This document shows, in pieces, positions 30,823-41,493 of a stretch of DNA of 64,000 nucleotides (position 1 is the stretch's first letter; every line of letters begins with the position of its first letter). The position numbers were made by a program, and so were the translations under genes. Under the pieces are notes generated by a model that saw only the letters and a list, made by a program, of their open reading frames with translations, was not told the origin of the DNA and made no database searches. The stretch is from NCBI RefSeq assembly GCF_019083995.1, contig NZ_JAHRCU010000002.1, positions 62,001 to 126,000 on the forward strand, written 5' to 3'. This DNA is from Roseococcus sp. SDR (GTDB lineage Bacteria > Pseudomonadota > Alphaproteobacteria > Acetobacterales > Acetobacteraceae).

Positions 30823-30839
30823 GGCTGGCTAAACCAGCC
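30823..30839. terminator. Hairpin between convergent ptsI and SDR genes
   Basis: GGCTGG-CTAAA-CCAGCC, 6-bp stem starting right after the ptsI TAA and including the SDR stop in its loop. No T-tract; possible weak bidirectional terminator. Confidence 0.4.
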
Positions 30840-31584
30840 CACCATTCACGTGCCAGACCTGGCCCGTGACATAGGCGGCCTCGGTCGAGGCCACGAAATT
30901 CACCGCCGCCGCCACGTCATCCGGCGTGCCGAGGCGCCCCAGCGGCACGCTGCGCTTCACCATCTCCCACTGGGCCGGCGAATAGGCCGCGTGCGCGCCG
31001 GGATCCTTCTGGGTGAAGCCCGGCGCCACCGCATTCACGGTCACGCCCTTCGGCGCGTATTCGATGGCGAGGCCGCGCACCAGCGCCTCCACCGCCGCCT
31101 TCGCGGCCGAGGTGGCGGGGAAGACCGTCACGTCGTTGCGGAAGCTGTGGGCGACGAAGGAGGAAATGGCGATCAGCCTGGGGTCGTGCCCCTCGGTCAG
31201 CACCGGCAGGGCGGCCCGCGCGAGCCGGATGAAGGCCCAGAGCACCGTATCCAGCGTGCGGGCGATCTGCGCGTCATCGGTCTGCAGCAGCGGAGTCTTG
31301 TCGGCGAAGCCGGCATTGGCGACGACCACGTCCAGCCCGCCGAAGTGCTCCTGCGCGGCAGCAACCAGCGCAGCCGGCGTGGCGGGATCGGCGATGTCGC
31401 CCAGCACCACATGGGCCGTGCCGCCCTTGGCACGCACCGCCTCGGCCGTGTGCTCCGCGCCTTCCGCGTTCTTGCGCGTGTGCACCAGGATGGCGGTGCC
31501 CGGCCCCGCCATCCGGCGGCAGCAGGCGGCGCCGATGCCGGTCGCGGCGCCGGTCACCAGGATGATGCGGTCTGCTCGTGCCAT
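30829..31584 (-). CDS. Short-chain dehydrogenase/reductase lacking the catalytic Tyr
   Basis: 251 aa. NAD(P) motif TGAATGIG at the N-terminus, VVVANAG in the middle and a late NGGLV-type end place it in the classical SDR family. The catalytic serine region is present (ISSFVAHS), but the YxxxK position reads T-S-A-A-K, so Thr replaces the key Tyr. It may be inactive, work by another mechanism or bind a ligand only. Last gene of the hpnCD-hpnE-ALDH operon, 16 nt behind the ALDH stop with GAGGAA upstream. Confidence 0.85.
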   Translation of the reverse strand: MARADRIILVTGAATGIGAACCRRMAGPGTAILVHTRKNAEGAEHTAEAVRAKGGTAHVVLGDIADPATPAALVAAAQEHFGGLDVVVANAGFADKTPLLQTDDAQIARTLDTVLWAFIRLARAALPVLTEGHDPRLIAISSFVAHSFRNDVTVFPATSAAKAAVEALVRGLAIEYAPKGVTVNAVAPGFTQKDPGAHAAYSPAQWEMVKRSVPLGRLGTPDDVAAAVNFVASTEAAYVTGQVWHVNGGLV

Positions 31585-31600
31585 CGCCGTGGGTTCCTCG

Positions 31601-32929
31601 CTACTTCAGGCCCACCAATTGCCGGATCAGCTTGCGGGCGAAGCCAGTCTGCGGCCGATCGAAGAGCCGCGCCAGCGCCCAGCCTCCGTTGCGCATACGC
31701 GCGCGCGGATTGCTGAATTCGCGGAACCCGGCCTCGCCATTGCGCCGCCCGAAGCCCGAGGCGCCGACGCCGCCGAAACCCAGCCCCGGCAGGGCCGCGT
31801 ATTCCACCGCACGCCCGGTCACCAGCGCGCCGGACTTGGTCTGGGCGGCGACCTGCGCTTCCTCGCTCGCATTCGCGCCGAAGAGGTAGATGGCCAGCGG
31901 ATGCGGCCGTGCGCGCACCCAGGCCAGCGCCTCCTCCAGCGAGGCGCATTCCTCCATGGCGAGGATGGGGCCGAAGATCTCCTCCTCCGCGAGCTGCCCA
32001 GCGGCCAGGGCGAGTCCCACCGAATGAGGCCCCGGCCCCATCCAGGCGATGGTGGCCCCCTCGCTGATGCGATCGAGCCGCGCCTGCTGGCGCGCGTTGA
32101 TCACGGCGGTGCCGGTCTCGGTCACGCCGCTCTCCCGCGCCGCGCGGGCGAAATCGGCCGCGCTGTGGCCGATGAGCAGCACCGTATCGGGCGCGATGCA
32201 GGTCTGCCCCGCATTGACGGCCTTGGCGACGAGGATGTTGCGCGCGGCGCGCTTCAGATCCGCGCCGGGCAGCACCAGGGCCGGGCATTTGCCGCCGAGC
32301 TCCAGCGTGAGCGGCGTCAGGTTCGGCGCGGCGGCCGCCATCACCTTGCGGCCGATCTCGGTGCCGCCGGTGAAGACCAGGTGGTCCCAGGGCTGGCTGG
32401 CGAAATCCTGCGCCACCTCCGGCCCGCCCTGCACGACCAGCGCAATGCGCGGCCCCCAGGCCTCGGCCAGGATGGTCTCGATGAGCGCGGCCACGCGCGG
32501 CGCCGCCTCGGAGGGCTTGATCACCACGCGGTTGCCGGCGGCGATGGCGTCGAGTGCGGGCATGAGGGCCAGCTGCACCGGATAGTTCCAGGGCGCCATG
32601 ATTCCGATGACGCCCTTGGGCATAGGCTCGACCCAGGCACGGGCGGGAAAGAAGGGCATGGGAACGGCGGCGCGGCGCGGCCGGGCCCAGCCGCGCAGCT
32701 TGCGGCGCGAGTAACTGCACGCATCGGCGATGAGCAGCACATCAGCCAACAGCGTGTCCTCGGCGCTGCGCGCGCCGTAGTCGGCGGCGGCGGCCTCGGC
32801 GATGGCGGCCGCGTGCTTCAGCACCACGCGGCGCAGTTCGGCCAGCAGGGCGCGGCGCGCATCCAGGCTCGGCGCGCCCTCCGCCGCCTCGACGGCGCGG
32901 AGCGCGGCGAGGGCTTCGGCCGGCGTCAT
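31601..32929 (-). CDS. Aldehyde dehydrogenase (class 3-like; candidate carotenoid-aldehyde dehydrogenase)
   Basis: 442 aa. NAD-site PWNYPVQLALMP and TGGTEIGRKV, catalytic Glu in TLELGGKCP, catalytic Cys in NAGQTCIAPD, and the late EEEIFGPIL motif are all intact. Short class 3-type ALDHs act on hydrophobic aldehydes; coniferyl aldehyde dehydrogenase and the staphyloxanthin-pathway AldH are of this kind. It starts on the hpnE stop (4-bp overlap), so it is tied to the squalene genes. I propose oxidation of a C30 carotenoid terminal aldehyde to the acid. The start at 32929 follows from this overlap; longer frames are shadows. Confidence 0.9.
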   Translation of the reverse strand: MTPAEALAALRAVEAAEGAPSLDARRALLAELRRVVLKHAAAIAEAAAADYGARSAEDTLLADVLLIADACSYSRRKLRGWARPRRAAVPMPFFPARAWVEPMPKGVIGIMAPWNYPVQLALMPALDAIAAGNRVVIKPSEAAPRVAALIETILAEAWGPRIALVVQGGPEVAQDFASQPWDHLVFTGGTEIGRKVMAAAAPNLTPLTLELGGKCPALVLPGADLKRAARNILVAKAVNAGQTCIAPDTVLLIGHSAADFARAARESGVTETGTAVINARQQARLDRISEGATIAWMGPGPHSVGLALAAGQLAEEEIFGPILAMEECASLEEALAWVRARPHPLAIYLFGANASEEAQVAAQTKSGALVTGRAVEYAALPGLGFGGVGASGFGRRNGEAGFREFSNPRARMRNGGWALARLFDRPQTGFARKLIRQLVGLK

Positions 32930-34140
32930 CGCAGGATCTCCCTTGCGGCAGCCTGGCCGGAGCAGATGGCGGCCTCGATGGTCGCGGGCAGATCGGGCCA
33001 GGTCCAGTCGCCGGCGAGCGCCAGGTTCGCCAGCGGCCGGCGCGGCGGCGCCGGAATCGGCCCGGGGCGCTGGCGCGGCGTGGCGCGGCGCTCCTTGATC
33101 ACGCGGCAGGGCGGCGGCGCCACCGGCCAGTCGCCCGGGACGTGAAAGGCGCGGACGGCAGCAAGGATCTCGGCCCAGGCGCGCGGGGCCAGTTCCTCCA
33201 CATCCTGCTCGGCCTCGGCATCGCCGGCGCTGACGGTGACGGCCACGCCGCCGGGCCGGATCAGCACCCATTGGCAGAGCGCGCCGAGCAGGCCGAGGAA
33301 GCGCACCTCGCCACCCGGCTGGAAGGCGAAATGCAGGTTCACGATGGGCGCGAAGCTGTCGGGCGCGGGCAGGCCGGGCAGCATGCGCGTCGCCTCCCAG
33401 GGCGGCAGGGCCAGCACCACGCGGTCGGCCTCGCCCAGCATCACATCCTGGTCCTGGAAGGTGAGGCTGCTGGCGCGGCCCTCCTTCACCTGGATGGCGC
33501 GGAGACGGCTGCCGGGGCGGTACTCCGCGCCCGCTGTCTCCAGCACCGCAAGCGCCGGGTCCACCAGGTCCGGCCCCAGCCCCCGGCTTGCCACGAAAAG
33601 CCGCGCGGCGCCCGGCGCTCCCAGCTTGCGCAGCACCTGGCCCAGGCGGCGCGTCGAGGCCTCGGCGGAAGGCGTATTCAGCGCAGCGATCACCAGCGGG
33701 TCCACGAAGCCACGCAGGAAAGCCGGATGCGCGGCCATCGCCTCGGCGATGGTCCGATCGCGCAGCGGCAAGGCCATCGCCATCATCGCCAGCACGCCGC
33801 CCCAGGAGATTCCGGCCGGCCGCCTGGCGCCATTCCACCAGCCGGCGGGCGAGAGCGCCACGAGGCGCGAGGAACCATCGGCGCAATCATGGACGGGCAG
33901 CCCGCCCGGCTCGGGCTGCACCCAGTATTGCCGCGCGCCAATGGCATCGAGGAAGCCGAGGGCCGCCGTGTTGCAGCCGATCAGCGCATGGGTGCCATTA
34001 TCCGTACCATCCGGCAGCGCGCGCGCGCGGCCGCCGGCCCCCGGTGTCGCCTCATGCAGCGTGACGGCGTGGCCTTGCGTGGCGAGCGCATGCGCGGCGG
34101 CGAGGCCGGCCATGCCGGCGCCGATCACATGGATGGTCAT
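32926..34140 (-). CDS. hpnE: Hydroxysqualene dehydroxylase HpnE
   Basis: 404-aa FAD enzyme of the amine-oxidase/desaturase fold. The N-terminal dinucleotide motif is MTIHVIGAGMAGLAAAHALA with GGRARALPDG, and the C-terminal FAD-contact segment is LALAGDWTWPDLPATIE with GQAAAREIL. HpnE reduces hydroxysqualene to squalene, completing the HpnCDE route that many bacteria use instead of eukaryote-type squalene synthase. Its start overlaps the stop of the HpnC-HpnD fusion by 4 bp and its stop overlaps the ALDH start by 4 bp. Confidence 0.92.
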   Translation of the reverse strand: MTIHVIGAGMAGLAAAHALATQGHAVTLHEATPGAGGRARALPDGTDNGTHALIGCNTAALGFLDAIGARQYWVQPEPGGLPVHDCADGSSRLVALSPAGWWNGARRPAGISWGGVLAMMAMALPLRDRTIAEAMAAHPAFLRGFVDPLVIAALNTPSAEASTRRLGQVLRKLGAPGAARLFVASRGLGPDLVDPALAVLETAGAEYRPGSRLRAIQVKEGRASSLTFQDQDVMLGEADRVVLALPPWEATRMLPGLPAPDSFAPIVNLHFAFQPGGEVRFLGLLGALCQWVLIRPGGVAVTVSAGDAEAEQDVEELAPRAWAEILAAVRAFHVPGDWPVAPPPCRVIKERRATPRQRPGPIPAPPRRPLANLALAGDWTWPDLPATIEAAICSGQAAAREILR

Positions 34141-35762
34141 CGCCCGGTCACCGCGAAGACCGCCATGCGGAACTTCTCAGCCTTCGTCATCCGCGCGCGC
34201 GGGCGCTCACCGGACCAGCCGCGCCGCAGCATGTGGTCCAGGATGCGGCGATAGCCCCACATCATCACGCGCGCGGGGCGCAGCGCCTCGGTGTCGTAAC
34301 GCGGGAGTTCCGCCTCGGCGCGGAAGAATCCGGCGACGGCGCGGCCCGCCAGTTCCTTGCAGATGCCCGGAAAGGCCGGATGCGTGACGATGGAGCGCGC
34401 CGGCCCATCCGGGATGCCCGCCTTCTCCAGCACGGAGAGCGGGATATAGACGCGGTCCCGCGTCGCATCCTCATCCACGTCGCGCAGGATGTTCGTCAGC
34501 TGGAAAGTGTGGCCCAGCGCCAGCCCCCAGGCCTCGGCCTTGGGCTCGCCGAAGATGCGGACCGACATGGCGCCCACGCTGCCGGCCACGCGGCGGCAAT
34601 AGAGATCGAGCGCCGCCTCATCCGGCAGGCGGAGATGGTCGGAGGCATCGGTCTCCATGCCCGCCACCATCGCCTCGCACTCTTCCAGCGGAATCTCGAA
34701 GGCCTCGCGCGCGAGCAGCAACTCGCGCGAGAGGGCGCAATCCGGCGTGGTGAGCTTCACGCGCCACTCGGCCAGCAGCCGGCGCTTCTCGCCCTCGGGC
34801 ATGGCACCATCCGCGATGTCATCCACCGCGCGGCAGAAGCCATAGACGGCCCAGAGGGCGCGGCGCCGCTCGCCCTTCAGCGTCGCCATGCCGCGCGCGA
34901 AGGAGGAGCCGGCGCGGCTGACGCGCTGCGCGACCAGCACAGGATCGGTCGGGCCGAGCAGCGGCGCGGCCAGCAGTTCCGCCGCGAAATCGAGCTTGCC
35001 CAGCGCGACCCGCCCCAGCACCGGATCAGCCGTGCGCAGCTTGCCGAGCAGCCGCCGCGCCAGGCCGATCGTCATGGCCGACTGGATGGCCAGCCGCCGC
35101 GCGGTGCAGAGCCGCGGCAACGCGCTGGCGCGGTCCAGCAGGTCCTCCACACGATCCAGCGCGGCATCCAGGATGTCGCGGCGCTTCGTGTTGCCCGGTT
35201 CGAAAAAGGCGGCCTCGCCGCCGGCCAGCGCGAGCCATGATTGCGGGAGATAGACGCGGTCCAGCTTCTCGCGGTCCGGCACCAGGTCCTGCAGGTGGTT
35301 CAGGATCTGCAGCGCGGTGCAGAGCCCGTCCGCCGCCTGCTTCGCGGCCTCGGCCGTCGTGCCGTGCAGGCGCAGCAGCATCCGGCCCACCGGGTCCGCG
35401 CTGCGGCGGCAGTAATCCACGAGGTCCGGCCATTCGGCATAGCGCGCCTGCTCGGAATCCTGCCGGAAGGCCGAGAGCATGAGGCGCGCTTCCTCGACGC
35501 CCACGCCCTCCGCCTGCATGCGCGCGCCTTCCGCGATGGGCGTGCGGGGATCATCCAGCGACGCTTCCATCGCATCGAGCCGCGCCAGCTTCTCGGCCGG
35601 GCTCAGGCTGTCGCTGTCGGCGATGTCGTCGGCCATGCGGACGAAGCGGTAGAAGGCCATGACCTTCGCCCGCACCGGCTTCGCCAGGATCAGCGAGGCG
35701 GTCGGGAAATTCTCCGTGTCATGGGTGCGGTTGGGCGCACCGGGCGCGGTCACATCATTCAT
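34137..35762 (-). CDS. hpnCD: HpnC-HpnD fusion: hydroxysqualene synthase + presqualene diphosphate synthase
   Basis: 541 aa holding two squalene/phytoene-synthase domains in one frame. Residues 1-265 look like HpnC: HDTENFPTASLILAKPVR, first Asp motif DDIAD at 45-49, second QD-x3-D motif at 158-163 with LDRVYLP. Residues 266-541 look like HpnD: SRAGSSFARGM, DDIAD at 314-318, and LRDVDEDA near 426-433 with DRVYIPL. HpnD joins two farnesyl diphosphates to presqualene diphosphate; HpnC turns that into hydroxysqualene. They are usually separate ~280-aa proteins. Start at 35762 behind AAAGGCGGC; the upstream frame to 35972 has no support. First gene of the operon with hpnE. Confidence 0.9.
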   Translation of the reverse strand: MNDVTAPGAPNRTHDTENFPTASLILAKPVRAKVMAFYRFVRMADDIADSDSLSPAEKLARLDAMEASLDDPRTPIAEGARMQAEGVGVEEARLMLSAFRQDSEQARYAEWPDLVDYCRRSADPVGRMLLRLHGTTAEAAKQAADGLCTALQILNHLQDLVPDREKLDRVYLPQSWLALAGGEAAFFEPGNTKRRDILDAALDRVEDLLDRASALPRLCTARRLAIQSAMTIGLARRLLGKLRTADPVLGRVALGKLDFAAELLAAPLLGPTDPVLVAQRVSRAGSSFARGMATLKGERRRALWAVYGFCRAVDDIADGAMPEGEKRRLLAEWRVKLTTPDCALSRELLLAREAFEIPLEECEAMVAGMETDASDHLRLPDEAALDLYCRRVAGSVGAMSVRIFGEPKAEAWGLALGHTFQLTNILRDVDEDATRDRVYIPLSVLEKAGIPDGPARSIVTHPAFPGICKELAGRAVAGFFRAEAELPRYDTEALRPARVMMWGYRRILDHMLRRGWSGERPRARMTKAEKFRMAVFAVTGR

Positions 35763-35902
35763 GCCGCCTTTGTGGCTTGTGTCGCGCCCGCTTTCCAGCC
35801 CAGGCCGGATGATCGGCAGAGCCGATCCGCGCGAGAGGCGCCACCGCGTTGCCACGGCACAGCCGGGACGGCCAATTTGCCATCGAGAGAGGAGACATCT
35901 CG

Positions 35903-36325
35903 ATGAAGCCGATATCGGGCGCTGGCAGCGCCACCCCGCTTCCCTTTCGTGCCCCAGGCCCGACCACGGCAAGCGGCCGAGAGGCCTACACCTGGCCGCC
36001 GCACCGCGTCAGCGTCACCCGGCGGGCGGGGGCTGCCTGTCAGCCCGACATCCTGGAGGTCTCGGGCCTCCCGGGGGGTCGCTCCCTGCGCGTGCGGGTG
36101 AGCCATCCGGTGACGGGGAGCATCACGGCGACCATCGAACTGACCCTGCATCACGGCCGGCAGGCGCTGCGCTATCGCGGTTGCGACAATCTGCGGCGCG
36201 GCACCGGTACGGTCCATCTGGCCGGCCCCCCCTTACCGGACGACCTCACGGGCAGCGCCGTCGAGGTCGCGGTGGACTCCTGCGAGATCTACGCGTTGAG
36301 TGCCCTGCGGCCGCCCGCCGCCTAG
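35903..36325 (+). CDS. Hypothetical protein between the hpn and crt operons
   Basis: 140 aa, not recognised. GAGAGGAGA lies 8 nt before the ATG at 35903, a good initiation site. No signal peptide or membrane helix; the N-terminus (KPISGAGSATPLPFRAPG) looks disordered, while residues ~45-135 alternate hydrophobic and polar residues like a small beta-sandwich (SLRVRVSHPVTGSITATIEL, VEVAVDSCEIYAL). Divergent from hpnCD over 140 bp and convergent with the glycosyltransferase gene. Codon use looks like its neighbours. Any link to pigment or membrane synthesis rests on position only. Confidence 0.65.
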   Translation: MKPISGAGSATPLPFRAPGPTTASGREAYTWPPHRVSVTRRAGAACQPDILEVSGLPGGRSLRVRVSHPVTGSITATIELTLHHGRQALRYRGCDNLRRGTGTVHLAGPPLPDDLTGSAVEVAVDSCEIYALSALRPPAA

Positions 36326-36326
36326 A

Positions 36327-36425
36327 GCATTTTCAAGCCAGGCAGCTTTGCTTGGCGACTCGGAAAATGCGTGAAAACAACGTGCTGGAGCCGTTTCACC
36401 GTCTTTGCTTGCGGTGAAATGGCTC
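36327..36425. repeat. Paired intergenic hairpins (palindromic repeat module)
   Basis: Two inverted repeats fill the gap between convergent genes. The first has outer arms GCATTTTC (36327-36334) and GAAAATGC (36363-36370), with an inner imperfect stem GCCAGGCA / TGCTTGGC. The second has 14-bp arms GAGCCGTTTCACCG (36388-36401) and CGGTGAAATGGCTC (36412-36425) with one wobble, and runs into the glycosyltransferase stop. It looks like a REP/RPE-type dispersed element and could also terminate both transcripts. Confidence 0.6.
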
Positions 36426-37525
36426 TAGCCCTCGGCCTTGGCCGCCGCATAGGCGCGGCCCTTCCACCCCGCCTTGAGCCCGAGGGCCGAGCGCACCAGG
36501 GCCGTCCACTGGATGGCGAGCGCCACCAGCACGGTGAAGGGGTGCAGCGGCACGGTCCACCAGGGCTCGCCCGTGCGCCAGGTGACGGCGGCGCGGAGTG
36601 CGAACATCAGACAGATGGTCAGCACCGCCTCGACATCGGGCAGAAGCGCCCAGGGCCAGAGATGGGCGCCAGCCAGCAGCACGGTCCAGATCGGCAGGCC
36701 CACGGGCGTCGCCATGCCTTCGCGCGCGTTCTTGATGAAGCCGCCCCAGGCATGGCCGAAATTGTCATACATGCGGCAGGTGGCAAGCGGCGTGCCGTCA
36801 ACGATTTCCGTGTCGTGGCCCAGGTCACGGAAGCGGCGTGCCAGAGCGATGCCGTCATGCAGCACGCCCTTGATGGCGGCATGCCCGCCGATCGCCTCAT
36901 AGGCACCGCGCTCGACGAGGATGAGCTGGCCGCAGGCGGCGGCGAGGCTCGCCTTGCGCTGCGCCGCCCGCCCGCCGAAGGGGAGGTAGCAGATCAGGAG
37001 GAAGTTGATGAAGGGAACGGTCAGCCCCTCGCCCAGGCTTCGGATGATCTGGCGCGGCACACCGCTCACCATCGCGATGGATTTTGAGGCGCTGTGCGCC
37101 GCCATGGCGGCCGCCGCATGCGGCGCGAGTCGCACATCCGCATCGATGAAGAGCAGATGCGTGCCCGTCGCGGCCTCAGCGAGGCGGGCGCAGGCATGCA
37201 CCTTGCCGGTCCAGCCCGGCGGCAGGCTCGGCGCCTGCACCAGGCGCACGCGGGCATCGCGATCCGCGTAGGATTGGACGATGGCGGCCGTCGCATCCGT
37301 GCTGCCATCGTCCATCACCACCACCTCGACCTCGCAGCCGGTGGAAGCCAGCGCCGCGTCCAGGCAGGCCGCGATATTGCCCGCCTCGTTGCGGGCCGGG
37401 ATCAGGATGGAGACGCGCGTGCCGGAGGGCGGCGTGCCACGCAGCCGCGGCATCCGGATCAGGTTGATCGTGCCGAAGATGATGGGCAGGAGCGCGAGGG
37501 CGAGCGCGATATGGGCGAATTCCAT
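36425..37525 (-). CDS. Family 2 glycosyltransferase, CrtQ-like (carotenoid glycosylation candidate)
   Basis: 366-aa membrane GT2. Hydrophobic N-terminal anchor (FAHIALALALLPIIFGTINLI), GT-A core with SILIPARNEAGNIAACLDA, VVMDDGSTDAT and the metal motif HLLFIDADVRLAP, then C-terminal helices (IWTVLLAGAHLWPWALL, VLVALAIQW). This layout is shared by HpnI/HpnB-type enzymes and by CrtQ, which glycosylates a diaponeurosporenoic acid in staphyloxanthin synthesis. Its place 2 nt after an acyltransferase and behind two desaturases favours the carotenoid role. Last gene of the crt operon. Confidence 0.8.
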   Translation of the reverse strand: MEFAHIALALALLPIIFGTINLIRMPRLRGTPPSGTRVSILIPARNEAGNIAACLDAALASTGCEVEVVVMDDGSTDATAAIVQSYADRDARVRLVQAPSLPPGWTGKVHACARLAEAATGTHLLFIDADVRLAPHAAAAMAAHSASKSIAMVSGVPRQIIRSLGEGLTVPFINFLLICYLPFGGRAAQRKASLAAACGQLILVERGAYEAIGGHAAIKGVLHDGIALARRFRDLGHDTEIVDGTPLATCRMYDNFGHAWGGFIKNAREGMATPVGLPIWTVLLAGAHLWPWALLPDVEAVLTICLMFALRAAVTWRTGEPWWTVPLHPFTVLVALAIQWTALVRSALGLKAGWKGRAYAAAKAEG

Positions 37526-37526
37526 C

Positions 37527-38345
37527 CTAGTCCCGCTTCTCCGCACGGCGCGCCTTGGTGTCGTGCCGCGGGTCATGCGCCTCGCCGCGCAGCACCGACC
37601 TGATATATTGCCAGGCGCCGTAGATTCCACCCATGCCGGCGCGACCATCGAGAACGGTGCGGAAGCGTTCCGGATCGCGGCTGATCGCATCCTGCGCGAG
37701 GCGGTCCATCGTCGCCGTCATGGCGGCGCGGATCGTCTCGGTCCGCGTATCGCGGTCCTCGGCCAGCAGGGCACGCGCATCGAGGGGTGCACCGCAGGCC
37801 ATCAGCGCCTCGCCCCGCTTCTCCGTCCAATGGGTGTATTCGAAGGCGAGCGGCACCAGCACCGCATCGGGCGCGATCTCGGGCAGGCGCGTCACACCTG
37901 GGGCCAGCGGCACCGGCCGCTCCCGCACATCGGCGAAGCGGCCGGGGGCGTTCATCCAGAGCATGTGGCGCGGATCCTCCAGCGCCTGCTTCGCCGTCTG
38001 CAGGAAGCGCACCGCGCCGCGCGCCGAATTCTGCTCGACGCCGAAGACGCCGAGCCGCTTCATGAAGGGGTATTTCTCCAGCGCCTCGGCATCCATCGGC
38101 GTGAAGCCGGGACGCTCCAGGAAGAAGCGGCGCATCAACAGCATGAACATCACGCCGTCCCACCAGCCCGGATGGTTGGCCAGCATGATGGCGGGCCGCC
38201 CCTCGGGCAGTTGCGGCTCACCCCAATGGGCGACGCGCAATGCCGAGAAATGCCCCGCGAAGGTGCGGCTGAAGGCGATGTTGAAGAACGCCATCATCCG
38301 CTCGGACCGGAGCGCGACAGGGGAAGGCGGCGTCTCCGTCGCCAT
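37527..38345 (-). CDS. PlsC-type acyltransferase, CrtO-like candidate
   Basis: 272 aa. The acyltransferase HX4D motif is NHPGWWD (His58, Asp63), followed by ALEKYPFMKRLGVFGVE and a substrate-site segment MLWMNAPGRFADVRERP. It moves an acyl chain from acyl-CoA or acyl-ACP to a hydroxyl. In the crt operon, between a desaturase/oxidase and a glycosyltransferase, the best guess is acylation of the carotenoid sugar, as CrtO does in staphyloxanthin. An ordinary lysophosphatidate acyltransferase is the alternative. Gap to the upstream gene is 5 nt. Confidence 0.8.
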   Translation of the reverse strand: MATETPPSPVALRSERMMAFFNIAFSRTFAGHFSALRVAHWGEPQLPEGRPAIMLANHPGWWDGVMFMLLMRRFFLERPGFTPMDAEALEKYPFMKRLGVFGVEQNSARGAVRFLQTAKQALEDPRHMLWMNAPGRFADVRERPVPLAPGVTRLPEIAPDAVLVPLAFEYTHWTEKRGEALMACGAPLDARALLAEDRDTRTETIRAAMTATMDRLAQDAISRDPERFRTVLDGRAGMGGIYGAWQYIRSVLRGEAHDPRHDTKARRAEKRD

Positions 38346-38350
38346 CGGCG

Positions 38351-39931
38351 TCAGGCGCCGATGAGTTCGGCCTCACGCCGGCCGGCCAGCTCCGCCTCGG
38401 GGCTCATGCCGCGGCCGCCCAGATCCTGGTCGAGGCTGTCGGCCGCGATCCAGCCGGACATCATGACCATCGGCATGCCGGGGCCCGGATGCGCCGCGCC
38501 GCCGGCCAGATACAGCCCCTTCACCTGGCGCGAGCGGTTGCCCGGCTTGAAGGCGCCCAGGAAAGAGCCGTGCGAGGCGAGGCCATAGATGGCGCCCTCC
38601 AGCACGCGATAGCGGTTGTGGATGTCCACCGGCGTGAGGCGCTGCTCGACGACGATGTTCTCCTCGATATCGTCCAGGCCCGCCGTGCGCTTCAGCTTGT
38701 CCAGGATCTTCTGGCGGTAGCCGGGGAAGATCTGGTTCCAGTCGTGATGCGGCCGCAGATGCGGCGTGTGGACGAGCGCATAGAGCGCCTCGCCGCCCGG
38801 GGGTGCGCTGGTCGGGTCGGTCTCGGCGGTGGCGGCCAGATAGACCGTCGGGTCCGGCGCGGGCTCGCCCTTCTTGTAGATCGCGTCGAACTCCTCCTCC
38901 GCATCGCGGGAGAAGACGAAACAGTGATGCGCCAGATGCGGGTAGCGCTTCTTCAGGCCCATATAGAGCACGACGCCCGAGCAGGCGGGCTCGAAGCCCT
39001 TCTTGTCATAGGTCTCGCCCGCCGAACCGCCGACCAGCTCCTTGTAGGTGCGGATCGCGTCCATGTTGGAGATCACCGCATCGCAGGCGATGCGCTCGCC
39101 GGAGGCGAGCTTCACGGCGACGACCTTGCCGTTCTCGATGTCGAAGCCCGTCACGTCGCTGGAGGGGCGCAGATCGGCGCCGAGCTCGCCCGCCAGCTTC
39201 GCGAGCCCCTCGGCCACGGCGCGCGTGCCGCCCACCGGATACCACACGCCCTCGCTCGCCTGCATATCGCCGATGGAGGCGAGCACGGCCGGCGCCAGAT
39301 AGGGGTTGGAGCCGACATATTGGCAGTAATGGTCGAGCATCTGCGCGAGGCGCTCATCGGGCACATTGCCGCGGATGACCTTGGCCACCGTCTGGCCCAT
39401 GCGCAGGCTCAGCACATCCTTCAGCGTGTTCGGGTTGAGGTTGGCGCGCATGTTCAGCGTGTCGCCGATGCCCTCGACCGACTTCCAGAAGAAGAACTTT
39501 TCCGAGACGCCGTGCAGGTGCTTCGCCAGGCGCTGGAACTTCCTGTAGCCCTCGGCCAGGCCCTTGCCCGGCGCGAAATCCTCCATGGCCTTCGCCATGA
39601 CGTCCACATCGGCCATCAGGTCGATGCGGCTGCCATCCTCGAAGAAGCAGCGCCATTGCGGATCCAGGCGGATCAGCGGCAGTTCCTTGGCCTGGTCACG
39701 CCCCGCCTCCGCATAGATGCGGCGCAGCACGCGCGGCACGGTGAGGATGGTGGGCCCCATGTCGAAGCGGAATTTTCCCGAACCATCGGGCGCGTCCAGG
39801 AAGAGCTGCGCGGCCTTGCCGCCGAGCCAGGGGTTCTTGTCCAGCAGCGTGACCTTGTGGCCGCGCGCGGCCGCGGTGCAGGCGGCGGCGAGGCCGCCGA
39901 GGCCGGCGCCGACAACAACGACATGGGACAT
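38351..39931 (-). CDS. CrtN/CrtP-type carotenoid desaturase or terminal oxidase (second copy)
   Basis: 526-aa FAD enzyme of the phytoene-desaturase family. FAD motif VVVGAGLGGLAAACTAAARG at the start, then LLDKNPWLGGKA, and the late LYLAGGAAHPGPGMPMVMMSG signature. GSNPYLAPA and YPVGGTRAVAEGLA are also typical. One of the two copies here probably dehydrogenates squalene and the other oxidises the end methyl group; by-eye reading cannot say which. The ATG at 39931 has GGAGG upstream; a TTG at 39937 would overlap the previous gene. Follows the first desaturase without a gap. Confidence 0.88.
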   Translation of the reverse strand: MSHVVVVGAGLGGLAAACTAAARGHKVTLLDKNPWLGGKAAQLFLDAPDGSGKFRFDMGPTILTVPRVLRRIYAEAGRDQAKELPLIRLDPQWRCFFEDGSRIDLMADVDVMAKAMEDFAPGKGLAEGYRKFQRLAKHLHGVSEKFFFWKSVEGIGDTLNMRANLNPNTLKDVLSLRMGQTVAKVIRGNVPDERLAQMLDHYCQYVGSNPYLAPAVLASIGDMQASEGVWYPVGGTRAVAEGLAKLAGELGADLRPSSDVTGFDIENGKVVAVKLASGERIACDAVISNMDAIRTYKELVGGSAGETYDKKGFEPACSGVVLYMGLKKRYPHLAHHCFVFSRDAEEEFDAIYKKGEPAPDPTVYLAATAETDPTSAPPGGEALYALVHTPHLRPHHDWNQIFPGYRQKILDKLKRTAGLDDIEENIVVEQRLTPVDIHNRYRVLEGAIYGLASHGSFLGAFKPGNRSRQVKGLYLAGGAAHPGPGMPMVMMSGWIAADSLDQDLGGRGMSPEAELAGRREAELIGA

Positions 39932-39933
39932 GT

Positions 39934-41493
39934 TCAAGCCTCCGTGGCGGGCGCGAGGGCGGGCTCCGCCGTCAGCGCCAAGTCTTGCTGGATGAGGCGC
40001 GAGGTGATGCGCGCGCCCTCATAGATCACCGGCAGGCCGGAGCCCGGATGCGTGCCGCCGCCCACCAGGTAGAAGCCCTGGGTATCATTGAAGCGGTTGC
40101 GCGGCCGGAAGCTCAGCATCTGCATCAGGTCATGGCTGAGGTTGAAGGTGGCGCCGAAGCCCACCGAGAACTCATCCTGCCAATCCTGCGGCGAGACGAT
40201 CCGCTCATAGCGGATGCGGGATTCGAGGTCGGTCAGGCCCAGCACCTTCAGCCGCTCGATCGCGATGTCGCGGTAGCGCGGCCCCTCCACGCTCCAATCT
40301 GCGCCATGGCGCAGATTGGGCACGGGCACCAGCACATAGAGCGCGGCATGGCCGGGGGGTGCCAGGCTCGGATCCGTCACGCAGGGGTTCTGGATATAGA
40401 GGCTCGGCACATCCGGCAGTTCGCCGCTCTCGATCTGGTGAATGTTGCGCTGATATTCCTCGGCCAGCAGCACATTGTGGTGCGACAGCTCCGGATAGGT
40501 GCCCTCGACGCCCAGATAGAGCATGAAGGTCGAGCAGGAATAGCGCGACTTCTCGATCTTCTGGTCGGACCAGGCCTTGCGGATGGCGTTCGGCACCAGC
40601 TTCGGCACGGCATGCGCGAAATCGCCATTCAGCACCACCGCATCGGCCGCGATGTGCTGGCCGCCCACCTCCACGCCCACGGCGCGGCGGCCGGCGAAGG
40701 TCACCTGATCGACCGGGGTGTTGAGGCGGATGTCCACGCCCAGGCGCTCGGCCACGCGGGCCATGGCGTCGCTCACCGCGCCGCAGCCGCCCACCGGGTG
40801 GTACACGCCATATTCGTATTCGAGGAAGCTCAGGATCGTGAAAAGCGAGGGGCACTTGAAGGGCGACATGCCCAGGTATTTCGTCTGGAAGCTGAAGGCG
40901 AGCCGCGTGCGCGGGTCCTTGAAGTAGCGCTTCAGGTCCTGGTCCACCTGCTTGTGCGGGCGCAGCTGCGGCAGGCTCTTCAGGATATCGGCGCCGACCA
41001 TGTCGGTCGTGTTCAGGAAGGGGCGCTCCAGGAAGGGGCGGAACACGGCGAGCTTCTCGCGATTCTCCTCCATGAAGCGGCGGATGCCCGGCACATCGCC
41101 CGGCGCGAAGGAGCCGATGTTGCGCTCCATCTGCGCGAGGTCGCCCGTCGCATCGATGCTGATGTTCGGCTTGCCCTCGAAGATCAGGCGGTATTGCGGG
41201 TCGAGGCGGATCAGCTCCACCTCCTCCTGCAGCTTGGCGCCGCAGGCCGCGAAGATCTCGTCCAGGATGCGCGGATAGAGGAAGAAGGTGGGCCCCAGGT
41301 CGAACTTGTAGCCCTCGGGCGAGGTCAGGGTGCGGGTGCGGCCACCCACCACGGCGTCTTTCTCATACAGCGTCACCCGCGCGCCGGATGCGGCCAGCTG
41401 CATGGCGGCGGCGAGGCCCCCGGGGCCGGCCCCGATGACAGCGACATGCGGGCGTGAGCGCCGGACCGAAGGGGAGGAAAGAGGTGCGTTCAT
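39934..41493 (-). CDS. CrtN/CrtI-type squalene/phytoene desaturase family protein (first copy)
   Basis: 519 aa. FAD motif VAVIGAGPGGLAAAMQLAASG, then LYEKDAVVGGRTRTL and YKFDLGPTFFLYP. The late signature is FYLVGGGTHPGSGLPVIYEGA, followed by an Ala-rich tail. First gene of the four-gene crt operon; a 135-bp gap upstream should carry the promoter. Together with HpnCDE nearby this fits stepwise dehydrogenation of squalene to a C30 polyene. A C40 phytoene role is possible but no crtB or crtE is in the window. Its SD is weak (CATCAGG). Confidence 0.88.
   Translation of the reverse strand: MNAPLSSPSVRRSRPHVAVIGAGPGGLAAAMQLAASGARVTLYEKDAVVGGRTRTLTSPEGYKFDLGPTFFLYPRILDEIFAACGAKLQEEVELIRLDPQYRLIFEGKPNISIDATGDLAQMERNIGSFAPGDVPGIRRFMEENREKLAVFRPFLERPFLNTTDMVGADILKSLPQLRPHKQVDQDLKRYFKDPRTRLAFSFQTKYLGMSPFKCPSLFTILSFLEYEYGVYHPVGGCGAVSDAMARVAERLGVDIRLNTPVDQVTFAGRRAVGVEVGGQHIAADAVVLNGDFAHAVPKLVPNAIRKAWSDQKIEKSRYSCSTFMLYLGVEGTYPELSHHNVLLAEEYQRNIHQIESGELPDVPSLYIQNPCVTDPSLAPPGHAALYVLVPVPNLRHGADWSVEGPRYRDIAIERLKVLGLTDLESRIRYERIVSPQDWQDEFSVGFGATFNLSHDLMQMLSFRPRNRFNDTQGFYLVGGGTHPGSGLPVIYEGARITSRLIQQDLALTAEPALAPATEA

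Follow-up and report, generated by a model that had tools for sequence, protein, structure and literature searches.

A cluster of eight genes in the genome of Roseococcus sp. SDR (Acetobacteraceae) appears to encode a complete pathway for a C30 carotenoid that is built by way of squalene. The cluster occupies positions 30829 to 41493, on the minus strand and with all reading frames open, of a 64,000-nucleotide stretch of contig NZ_JAHRCU010000002.1 (positions 62,001 to 126,000), which is here called the window. The encoded enzymes would very probably convert farnesyl diphosphate, through squalene, to a sugar-linked red C30 carotenoid that is probably decorated with a fatty acid, and the same squalene pool would feed an unlinked squalene-hopene cyclase (SHC) for the synthesis of hopanoids. 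We put the probability of this reading, pigment pathway and shared squalene pool together, at roughly 0.86. The route from farnesyl diphosphate through squalene to C30 carotenoids had been proposed from the bare sequence (the original prediction), and protein families, catalytic motifs, a desaturase tree and gene order all lend it support.

The genes are arranged in two tight runs (Table 1), as originally predicted: the gaps within the runs do not exceed 16 bp, and 662 bp separate GT2 from HpnCD. The first run reads, from its upstream end, DesA, DesB, PlsC and GT2 (family 2 glycosyltransferase), with gaps of 2, 5 and 1 bp, and the second comprises HpnCD, HpnE, an aldehyde dehydrogenase (ALDH) and a short-chain dehydrogenase/reductase (SDR), with gaps of -4, -4 and 16 bp, HpnE overlapping HpnCD and ALDH by 4 bp each. 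All the genes named in the prediction were found, except that HpnC and HpnD proved to be a single open reading frame (ORF) of 541 aa rather than two genes. Examination of up to 20 kb around HpnCD in 18 genomes of the same genus showed that the order and orientation of every cluster gene lying inside the contig are preserved in all 18 loci; therefore, the association of these genes is not due to chance. ALDH was found in each of the 14 loci whose contig extends far enough (the other 4 contigs stop earlier) and, given that the order from DesA to ALDH is conserved across the genus, the two runs travel as a single unit.

Table 1 Genes of the C30 carotenoid cluster and the small ORF between its two runs (positions within the window)
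Gene	Positions	Strand	Length (aa)	Family or match	Assignment
DesA	39934..41493	-	519	TIGR02734, 531 bits	CrtI-family desaturase, alphaproteobacterial CrtN type
DesB	38351..39931	-	526	TIGR02734, 388 bits	Putative CrtP-type terminal oxidase
PlsC	37527..38345	-	272	PF01553	PlsC-type acyltransferase, counterpart of META1p3664
GT2	36425..37525	-	366	PF00535	Glycosyltransferase, counterpart of META1p3663
Small ORF	35903..36325	+	140		Divergent, between the runs
HpnCD	34137..35762	-	541		Fused HpnC (N-terminal half) and HpnD (C-terminal half)
HpnE	32926..34140	-	404	TIGR03467 (best family)	Putative hydroxysqualene dehydroxylase
ALDH	31601..32929	-	442	PF00171	Proposed to oxidize the terminal aldehyde of the C30 chain
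SDR	30829..31584	-	251	PF13561	Lineage-specific, doubtful role

From the genes, families, motifs, orthology and synteny observed in and around the cluster, we infer the following reactions, their order and the product. The HpnD half of the fused enzyme would condense two molecules of farnesyl diphosphate to presqualene diphosphate, the HpnC half would convert the latter to hydroxysqualene, and HpnE would form squalene. Squalene would then be desaturated by DesA, with DesB acting together with DesA to bring the chain ends to the aldehyde level, and ALDH would oxidize the aldehyde to the acid. GT2 is predicted to attach glucose as an ester and PlsC to acylate the sugar, so that the expected product is one or more glucosyl esters of 4,4'-diapolycopene-4,4'-dioic acid, probably acylated. 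Part of the squalene would be diverted to SHC and hence to hopanoids.

The fused HpnCD protein exceeds the cut-offs of both respective NCBIfam models (TIGR03464, 310.7 vs. 250.45 bits; TIGR03465, 323.7 vs. 278.6 bits), and each of its halves contains both Asp motifs (at residues 45, 158, 314 and 427). The AlphaFold2 model is compact and consists of two domains (mean pLDDT 92.7, pTM 0.90), and in PDB searches, the matches of which are informative at the family level only, each half resembles CrtM and HpnC structures. It is extremely unlikely that HpnCD is instead a bifunctional synthase of the dehydrosqualene type, akin to CrtM, that bypasses squalene. The HpnD half indeed shows 23% identity to CrtM over 264 aa, and CrtM-like enzymes are the best fold matches in the PDB, but both halves score above the HpnC and HpnD cut-offs, the cluster continues with an overlapping HpnE gene that would be superfluous in such a bypass, and SHC needs squalene.

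The identity of the two flavoenzymes was assessed with a tree of 36 desaturase sequences that included six C40 CrtI and two CrtD references. The crt operon of Staphylococcus pasteuri was employed as the firmicute C30 reference; a Niallia plasmid locus that was considered for this purpose was rejected as it holds only one desaturase. All 12 DesA sequences fall into one clade (support 100/99) together with Methylorubrum and Azospirillum genes, and all 12 DesB sequences into another (100/99), with staphylococcal CrtP, a long-branched sequence, as the sister of DesB (99/95). The C40 CrtI clade (100/100) and the CrtD clade (100/100) are both separate from DesA and DesB. The prediction of two CrtN/CrtP-type flavoenzymes thus holds, the firm grouping with C40 CrtI or CrtD that could have overturned it was not seen, and the placement in the tree led us to reject C40 CrtI or CrtD as candidates for these genes. 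By synteny and tree position, DesA is the ortholog of the Methylobacterium CrtN-type gene META1p3670, and DesB, by synteny, is that of META1p3665. The tree bears also on a different interpretation of the cluster, namely that the flavoenzymes act on C40 substrates of the lycopene type and the cluster modifies carotenoids made by CrtB and CrtI. CrtB, CrtI and CrtD are encoded in the genome, and a pair of glycosyltransferase and PlsC also accompanies CrtI in a Thermus locus. Nevertheless, we consider this interpretation very unlikely: apart from the position of DesA and DesB outside both C40 clades, the cluster is also present in six genomes of the genus with neither a second CrtB-like match nor a reaction centre, and the orthologs in Methylobacterium and Azospirillum reportedly make, or depend on, C30 precursors.

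The C30 route has a counterpart in Methylobacterium extorquens AM1. The loci of Methylorubrum carry the counterpart of DesA approximately 5 kb upstream of consecutive DesB, PlsC and GT2 genes, a layout that, judging from gene order, would be that of META1p3670 and META1p3665-3664-3663 of AM1. Deletion of the AM1 glycosyltransferase is reported to yield 4,4'-diapolycopene-4,4'-dioic acid and deletion of the acyltransferase a non-acylated glucoside of this acid, the wild-type product being an octadecenoyl-glucosyl ester (PMC10448405). The roles predicted for the glycosyl- and acyltransferase of the window correspond to this cassette. The two systems share the CrtN-type and CrtP-type enzymes, PlsC and the glycosyltransferase, but in M. 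extorquens squalene is described as coming from HpnCDE encoded by META1p1815-1817, adjoining SHC (PMC10448405), whereas in the window a fused HpnCD and ALDH belong to the same locus. In the loci that we compared, which are from relatives of M. extorquens, HpnC and HpnD are encoded by two distinct genes.

A second counterpart is Azospirillum brasilense Sp7, in which deletion of either hpnCDE or crtNPOQ is reported to abolish carotenoids, and the crtNPOQ mutant to build up squalene (PMC13274349). The DesA and DesB proteins of A. brasilense are 56–64% identical to those of the window and are encoded alongside PlsC, a glycosyltransferase and an ALDH. The set of functions is equal, with ALDH beside the pigment genes, but as described in PMC13274349 it is divided between two loci (hpnCDE and crtNPOQ-aldH), and the ALDH belongs to a different clade. 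By contrast, a single locus on a plasmid of Microvirga ossetica (NZ_CP016619) carries DesA, DesB, PlsC, GT2, HpnE and the fused HpnCD, along with an ALDH that falls into the clade of the window's enzyme; this cluster additionally includes a methyltransferase and IspH, and its SDR is not similar to that of the window at an E value of 1e-5. Among the C30 loci of Microvirga and Salinarimonas, ispH is recurrent (L057, L064-L073, L089, L101, L102, L112), and a methyltransferase is present in most of those from Microvirga.

When named genomes were scanned with an alignment of DesB, 576 loci were confirmed; the best 80 of these were analyzed, so that the counts given here are not frequencies. In 79 of these 80 loci the DesB, PlsC and GT2 genes are consecutive, and the remaining locus is cut by the contig end. 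The bacteria involved include Microvirga, Methylobacterium/Methylorubrum, Salinarimonas, Azospirillum, Skermanella and Roseomonas-type genera. Outside Roseococcus, a DUF2141 protein is encoded in 21 of the best 80 of the 576 C30 loci (L059, L060, L061, L067-L073 and others). A sulfotransferase gene adjoins GT2 in Palleronia, and a similar one is found in Azospirillum agricola (L060:13860-14969; L135), which suggests sulfated C30 carotenoids. In Gluconobacter thailandicus (NZ_CP043044.1, L061), the C30 pigment genes reside on a plasmid typed as conjugative, with no HpnCDE within the stretch analyzed.

The pathway also follows the logic of staphyloxanthin biosynthesis (crtOPQMN-aldH), to which it had been likened: both comprise a C30 backbone, CrtP, aldehyde oxidation, glycosylation by a GT2 enzyme and acylation. 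The likeness holds for this logic, with CrtM replaced by HpnCDE, and breaks down for CrtO and also for DesA, which does not group with CrtN. GT2 shows 26% identity to CrtQ of the staphylococcal plasmid operon (E value 2e-25). The acyltransferase of the window matches PF01553 only, as opposed to PF18927 of CrtO, and BLAST detected no similarity to staphylococcal CrtO; we accordingly rejected it as a CrtO and, with it, the parallel drawn in the original prediction. As far as can be read from the gene, the acylation step is like that of CrtO in function, and the enzyme is not of the CrtO family. The megaplasmid of Thermus thermophilus HB8 carries, near CrtI, a PlsC-glycosyltransferase pair related to that of the window (L202:414-2110), with 40% identity over 228 aa for the glycosyltransferase and 28% for PlsC.

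The ALDH contains the LELGGK and GQTC motifs. In a tree of 46 sequences (L111, of 150 aa, was omitted as too short), the ALDHs from C30 loci split into two clades, one composed of the window, other Acetobacteraceae, Microvirga and Palleronia (12 sequences, 100/99), and the other of Azospirillum, Skermanella, Elstera, Gluconobacter and a metagenome-assembled genome (7 sequences, 100/100), with 27 general ALDHs from the same search outside both. The first clade includes an ALDH of Microvirga guangxiensis that is encoded away from its C30 locus (L146). An ALDH was detected in 27 of the best 80 of the 576 loci, and 18 of the 27 are closest to that of the window, all from bacteria that are Acetobacteraceae by name. 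The AldH of M. extorquens is reported as unidentified, the deletion of two candidates having had no effect (PMC10448405). Eight Methylobacterium and Methylorubrum genomes yielded no ortholog of either the window or the Azospirillum type (best E values 1.3e-26 and 2.1e-36, respectively, vs. 3.4e-209 in Roseococcus), and the Methylorubrum genes that lie between the counterparts of DesA and DesB include nothing ALDH-like as judged by the tblastn queries. Thus, the window ALDH was rejected as the missing Methylobacterium enzyme; it is a good candidate for the AldH of its own lineage and leaves the Methylobacterium case unsolved. The SDR is present in the run, as predicted, but a role in the pathway is doubtful: it adjoins ALDH in 5 of the 14 same-genus relatives whose contig reaches that far, and the catalytic Tyr of YxxxK is replaced by Thr in all six genomes with this gene, including the window (ATSAAK/ATAAAK). 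Because it is patchy and lacks the catalytic Tyr, we left the SDR out of the pathway.

Within the genus, the cluster is also found in Roseococcus thiosulfatophilus RB-3, with 73–88% identity for eight of its parts. A C30 carotenedioate and the diglucosyl ester of this compound are said to occur in this species and to join in light transfer (PMC12654162); a title in the reference list of the same review refers to most polar carotenoids as not bound to bacteriochlorophyll complexes. The genome of Roseococcus sp. SDR itself encodes BchP, BchG, AcsF, BchI, BchO, CrtB, CrtD, CrtI and two reaction-centre proteins. CrtD scores above its equivalog cut-off, and CrtB, at 416.8 bits against a cut-off of 500 for NF045921, matches this model far better than the HpnD model (182.6 bits). 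The reaction centre is present in 14 of 21 genomes of the genus. HpnCD matches were obtained in 20 genus genomes: those 14 that encode a reaction centre have a second, CrtB-like match (typed as CrtB in the genome analyzed here, G019 and G020), and the other six have one match each. The CrtB-like match thus tracks the reaction centre and the C30 cluster occurs in genomes with and without it, so the C40 genes follow phototrophy and the C30 genes do not.

Neither SHC nor CrtB is encoded in the window, as noted in the original prediction, but both are found elsewhere in the 5.0-Mb draft genome (no search was made for CrtE). SHC (752.9 bits vs. a cut-off of 431.1) is located on contig C10, away from HpnCDE on C2, and HpnH is also present (518.4 vs. 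225.05 bits). The genome contains four squalene/phytoene synthase (SQS/PSY) domains, two of them in HpnCD, one in CrtB and one in a paralog that lacks the first Asp motif; a CrtM-like enzyme or a second HpnC or HpnD is not among these proteins. Given that SHC and HpnH are present and HpnCDE is the sole recognizable source of squalene, HpnCDE should feed hopanoids, too. Hence, the search for shc and a second hpnCDE suggested originally gave a positive answer for the former and none for a further HpnC or HpnD, and the proposal that HpnCDE serves pigments rather than hopanoids did not stand. The paralog without DDxxD, which is easily mistaken for a squalene synthase, was found in all 21 Acetobacteraceae genomes checked (L016:6921-7754, L225-L244).

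The same pattern is seen in a sample of 200 Acetobacteraceae genomes. Of these, 40 contain a fused match: 37 at full length, two cut (at least 59% identity) and the one in G021, a fusion of separate origin that adjoins SHC and was excluded from the SHC count. SHC is present in 30 of the remaining 39, and 29 of the 30 show no further HpnC or HpnD. The 20 additional high-scoring SQS/PSY matches in the 40 genomes, a set that leaves out the CrtB of Roseococcus sp. SDR and the G021 fusion, comprise 19 CrtB and a single hopanoid-type HpnD beside SHC, in the exceptional genome G180, and the 20 additional low-scoring matches that were checked all represent the motif-less paralog. HpnCDE could nonetheless be dedicated to the pigment, with hopanoids absent or supplied from another source of squalene, as the location of HpnCD and HpnE with the pigment genes and far from SHC, as well as the 9 fusion genomes of the 39 that lack an SHC match, in which the enzyme could serve the pigment alone, might suggest. 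In view of SHC and HpnH in the genome, the lack of any other recognized squalene source there and the prevalence of SHC in fusion genomes, we regard such dedication as quite unlikely and reject it for Roseococcus sp. SDR; the squalene made by HpnCDE seems to supply hopanoids besides the pigment.

Several observations weigh against the pathway as we read it. HpnE, although matching TIGR03467 over its full length, scores 259.9 bits, below the cut-off of 283.05. DesA is separate from firmicute CrtN, which pairs with the Niallia protein, and constitutes a distinct clade next to CrtI, CrtN and a cyanobacterial protein; 'CrtN-type' denotes here the alphaproteobacterial type tested in Methylobacterium and implies no descent from firmicute CrtN. 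With CrtB, CrtI and CrtD encoded in the genome, C40 carotenoids are expected to be made as well. The account of R. thiosulfatophilus, in the passage of the review that concerns its pigments, mentions no acyl group (PMC12654162). Finally, among 20 Acetobacteraceae fusion loci, 13 contain all four genes of the first run (DesA, DesB, PlsC, GT2), another is truncated at GT2, a further one is that of G021, and the other five (G025, G066, G078, G145, G194) consist of HpnCD and HpnE with no pigment neighbours. Four of these five genomes encode SHC; unless their pigment genes are located elsewhere, the only role of the pigment-type enzyme there may be to supply hopanoids.

HpnC and HpnD are fused in 18 of the 21 genus genomes (two others are contig-cut and one has no match) and in all 37 of the best 80 of the 576 named loci that contain both halves; in L143, HpnC stands alone at a contig end. 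In trees of the separate halves, 14 of 15 fusions, all but that of G021, form one clade (HpnC, 100/99; HpnD, 100/98) that spans Acetobacteraceae and Microvirga/Salinarimonas, with 18 separate pairs outside. The C30 locus of Palleronia has unfused HpnC and HpnD; therefore, fusion is not required by the pathway. Microvirga massiliensis retains both the fused and the separate forms. The fusion as such was rejected as a novelty, being already in print for SD2 Acidobacteria, Actinobacteria and Rhodospirillum centenum (PMC5462960). The acidobacterial protein likewise unites HpnC and HpnD in one gene, but it is described in a hopanoid context, whereas the fusion of the window lies beside C30 pigment genes. 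That presqualene diphosphate is passed between the two active sites of the fused enzyme is our conjecture, and that a pigment-type enzyme replaced a hopanoid-type one is our reading of the patterns, the tree being unrooted. It is possible, although we would place the odds somewhat against it, that the fused HpnCD displaced the hopanoid HpnC and HpnD in much of the Acetobacteraceae, so that a single pigment-type gene controls the entry into C30 carotenoids as well as hopanoids, that in phototrophic bacteria of this family, Roseococcus among them, the C30 product harvests light beside the C40 set of the photosynthesis genes, and that presqualene diphosphate is channelled.

The spacer between the two runs also holds a small plus-strand ORF, with no Pfam match down to an E value of 0.1. 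Counterparts with 32–50% identity, likewise oriented opposite to the cluster, are present in 3 of the 18 genus loci; in one of these (L043), HpnCD is 96% identical to that of the window, yet the small-ORF counterpart merely 50%.

The pathway and its parts belong to a known kind; new here are its assignment to Roseococcus, the single clade of the fused HpnCD, the dual role that this enzyme appears to play and the two types of ALDH. In the literature, as far as our partial coverage extends, we found no assignment of these genes in Roseococcus or Roseomonas. The case also calls for caution in both directions, as HpnCDE genes are no proof of hopanoids, and distance from SHC is no proof against them. 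With this locus, the C30 carotenedioate glycosides that R. thiosulfatophilus is reported to contain can be linked to genes, and two questions become testable: does a single squalene synthase of the pigment type also feed hopanoids, and which ALDH forms the C30 acid? The latter step is described as unsolved for M. extorquens (PMC10448405).

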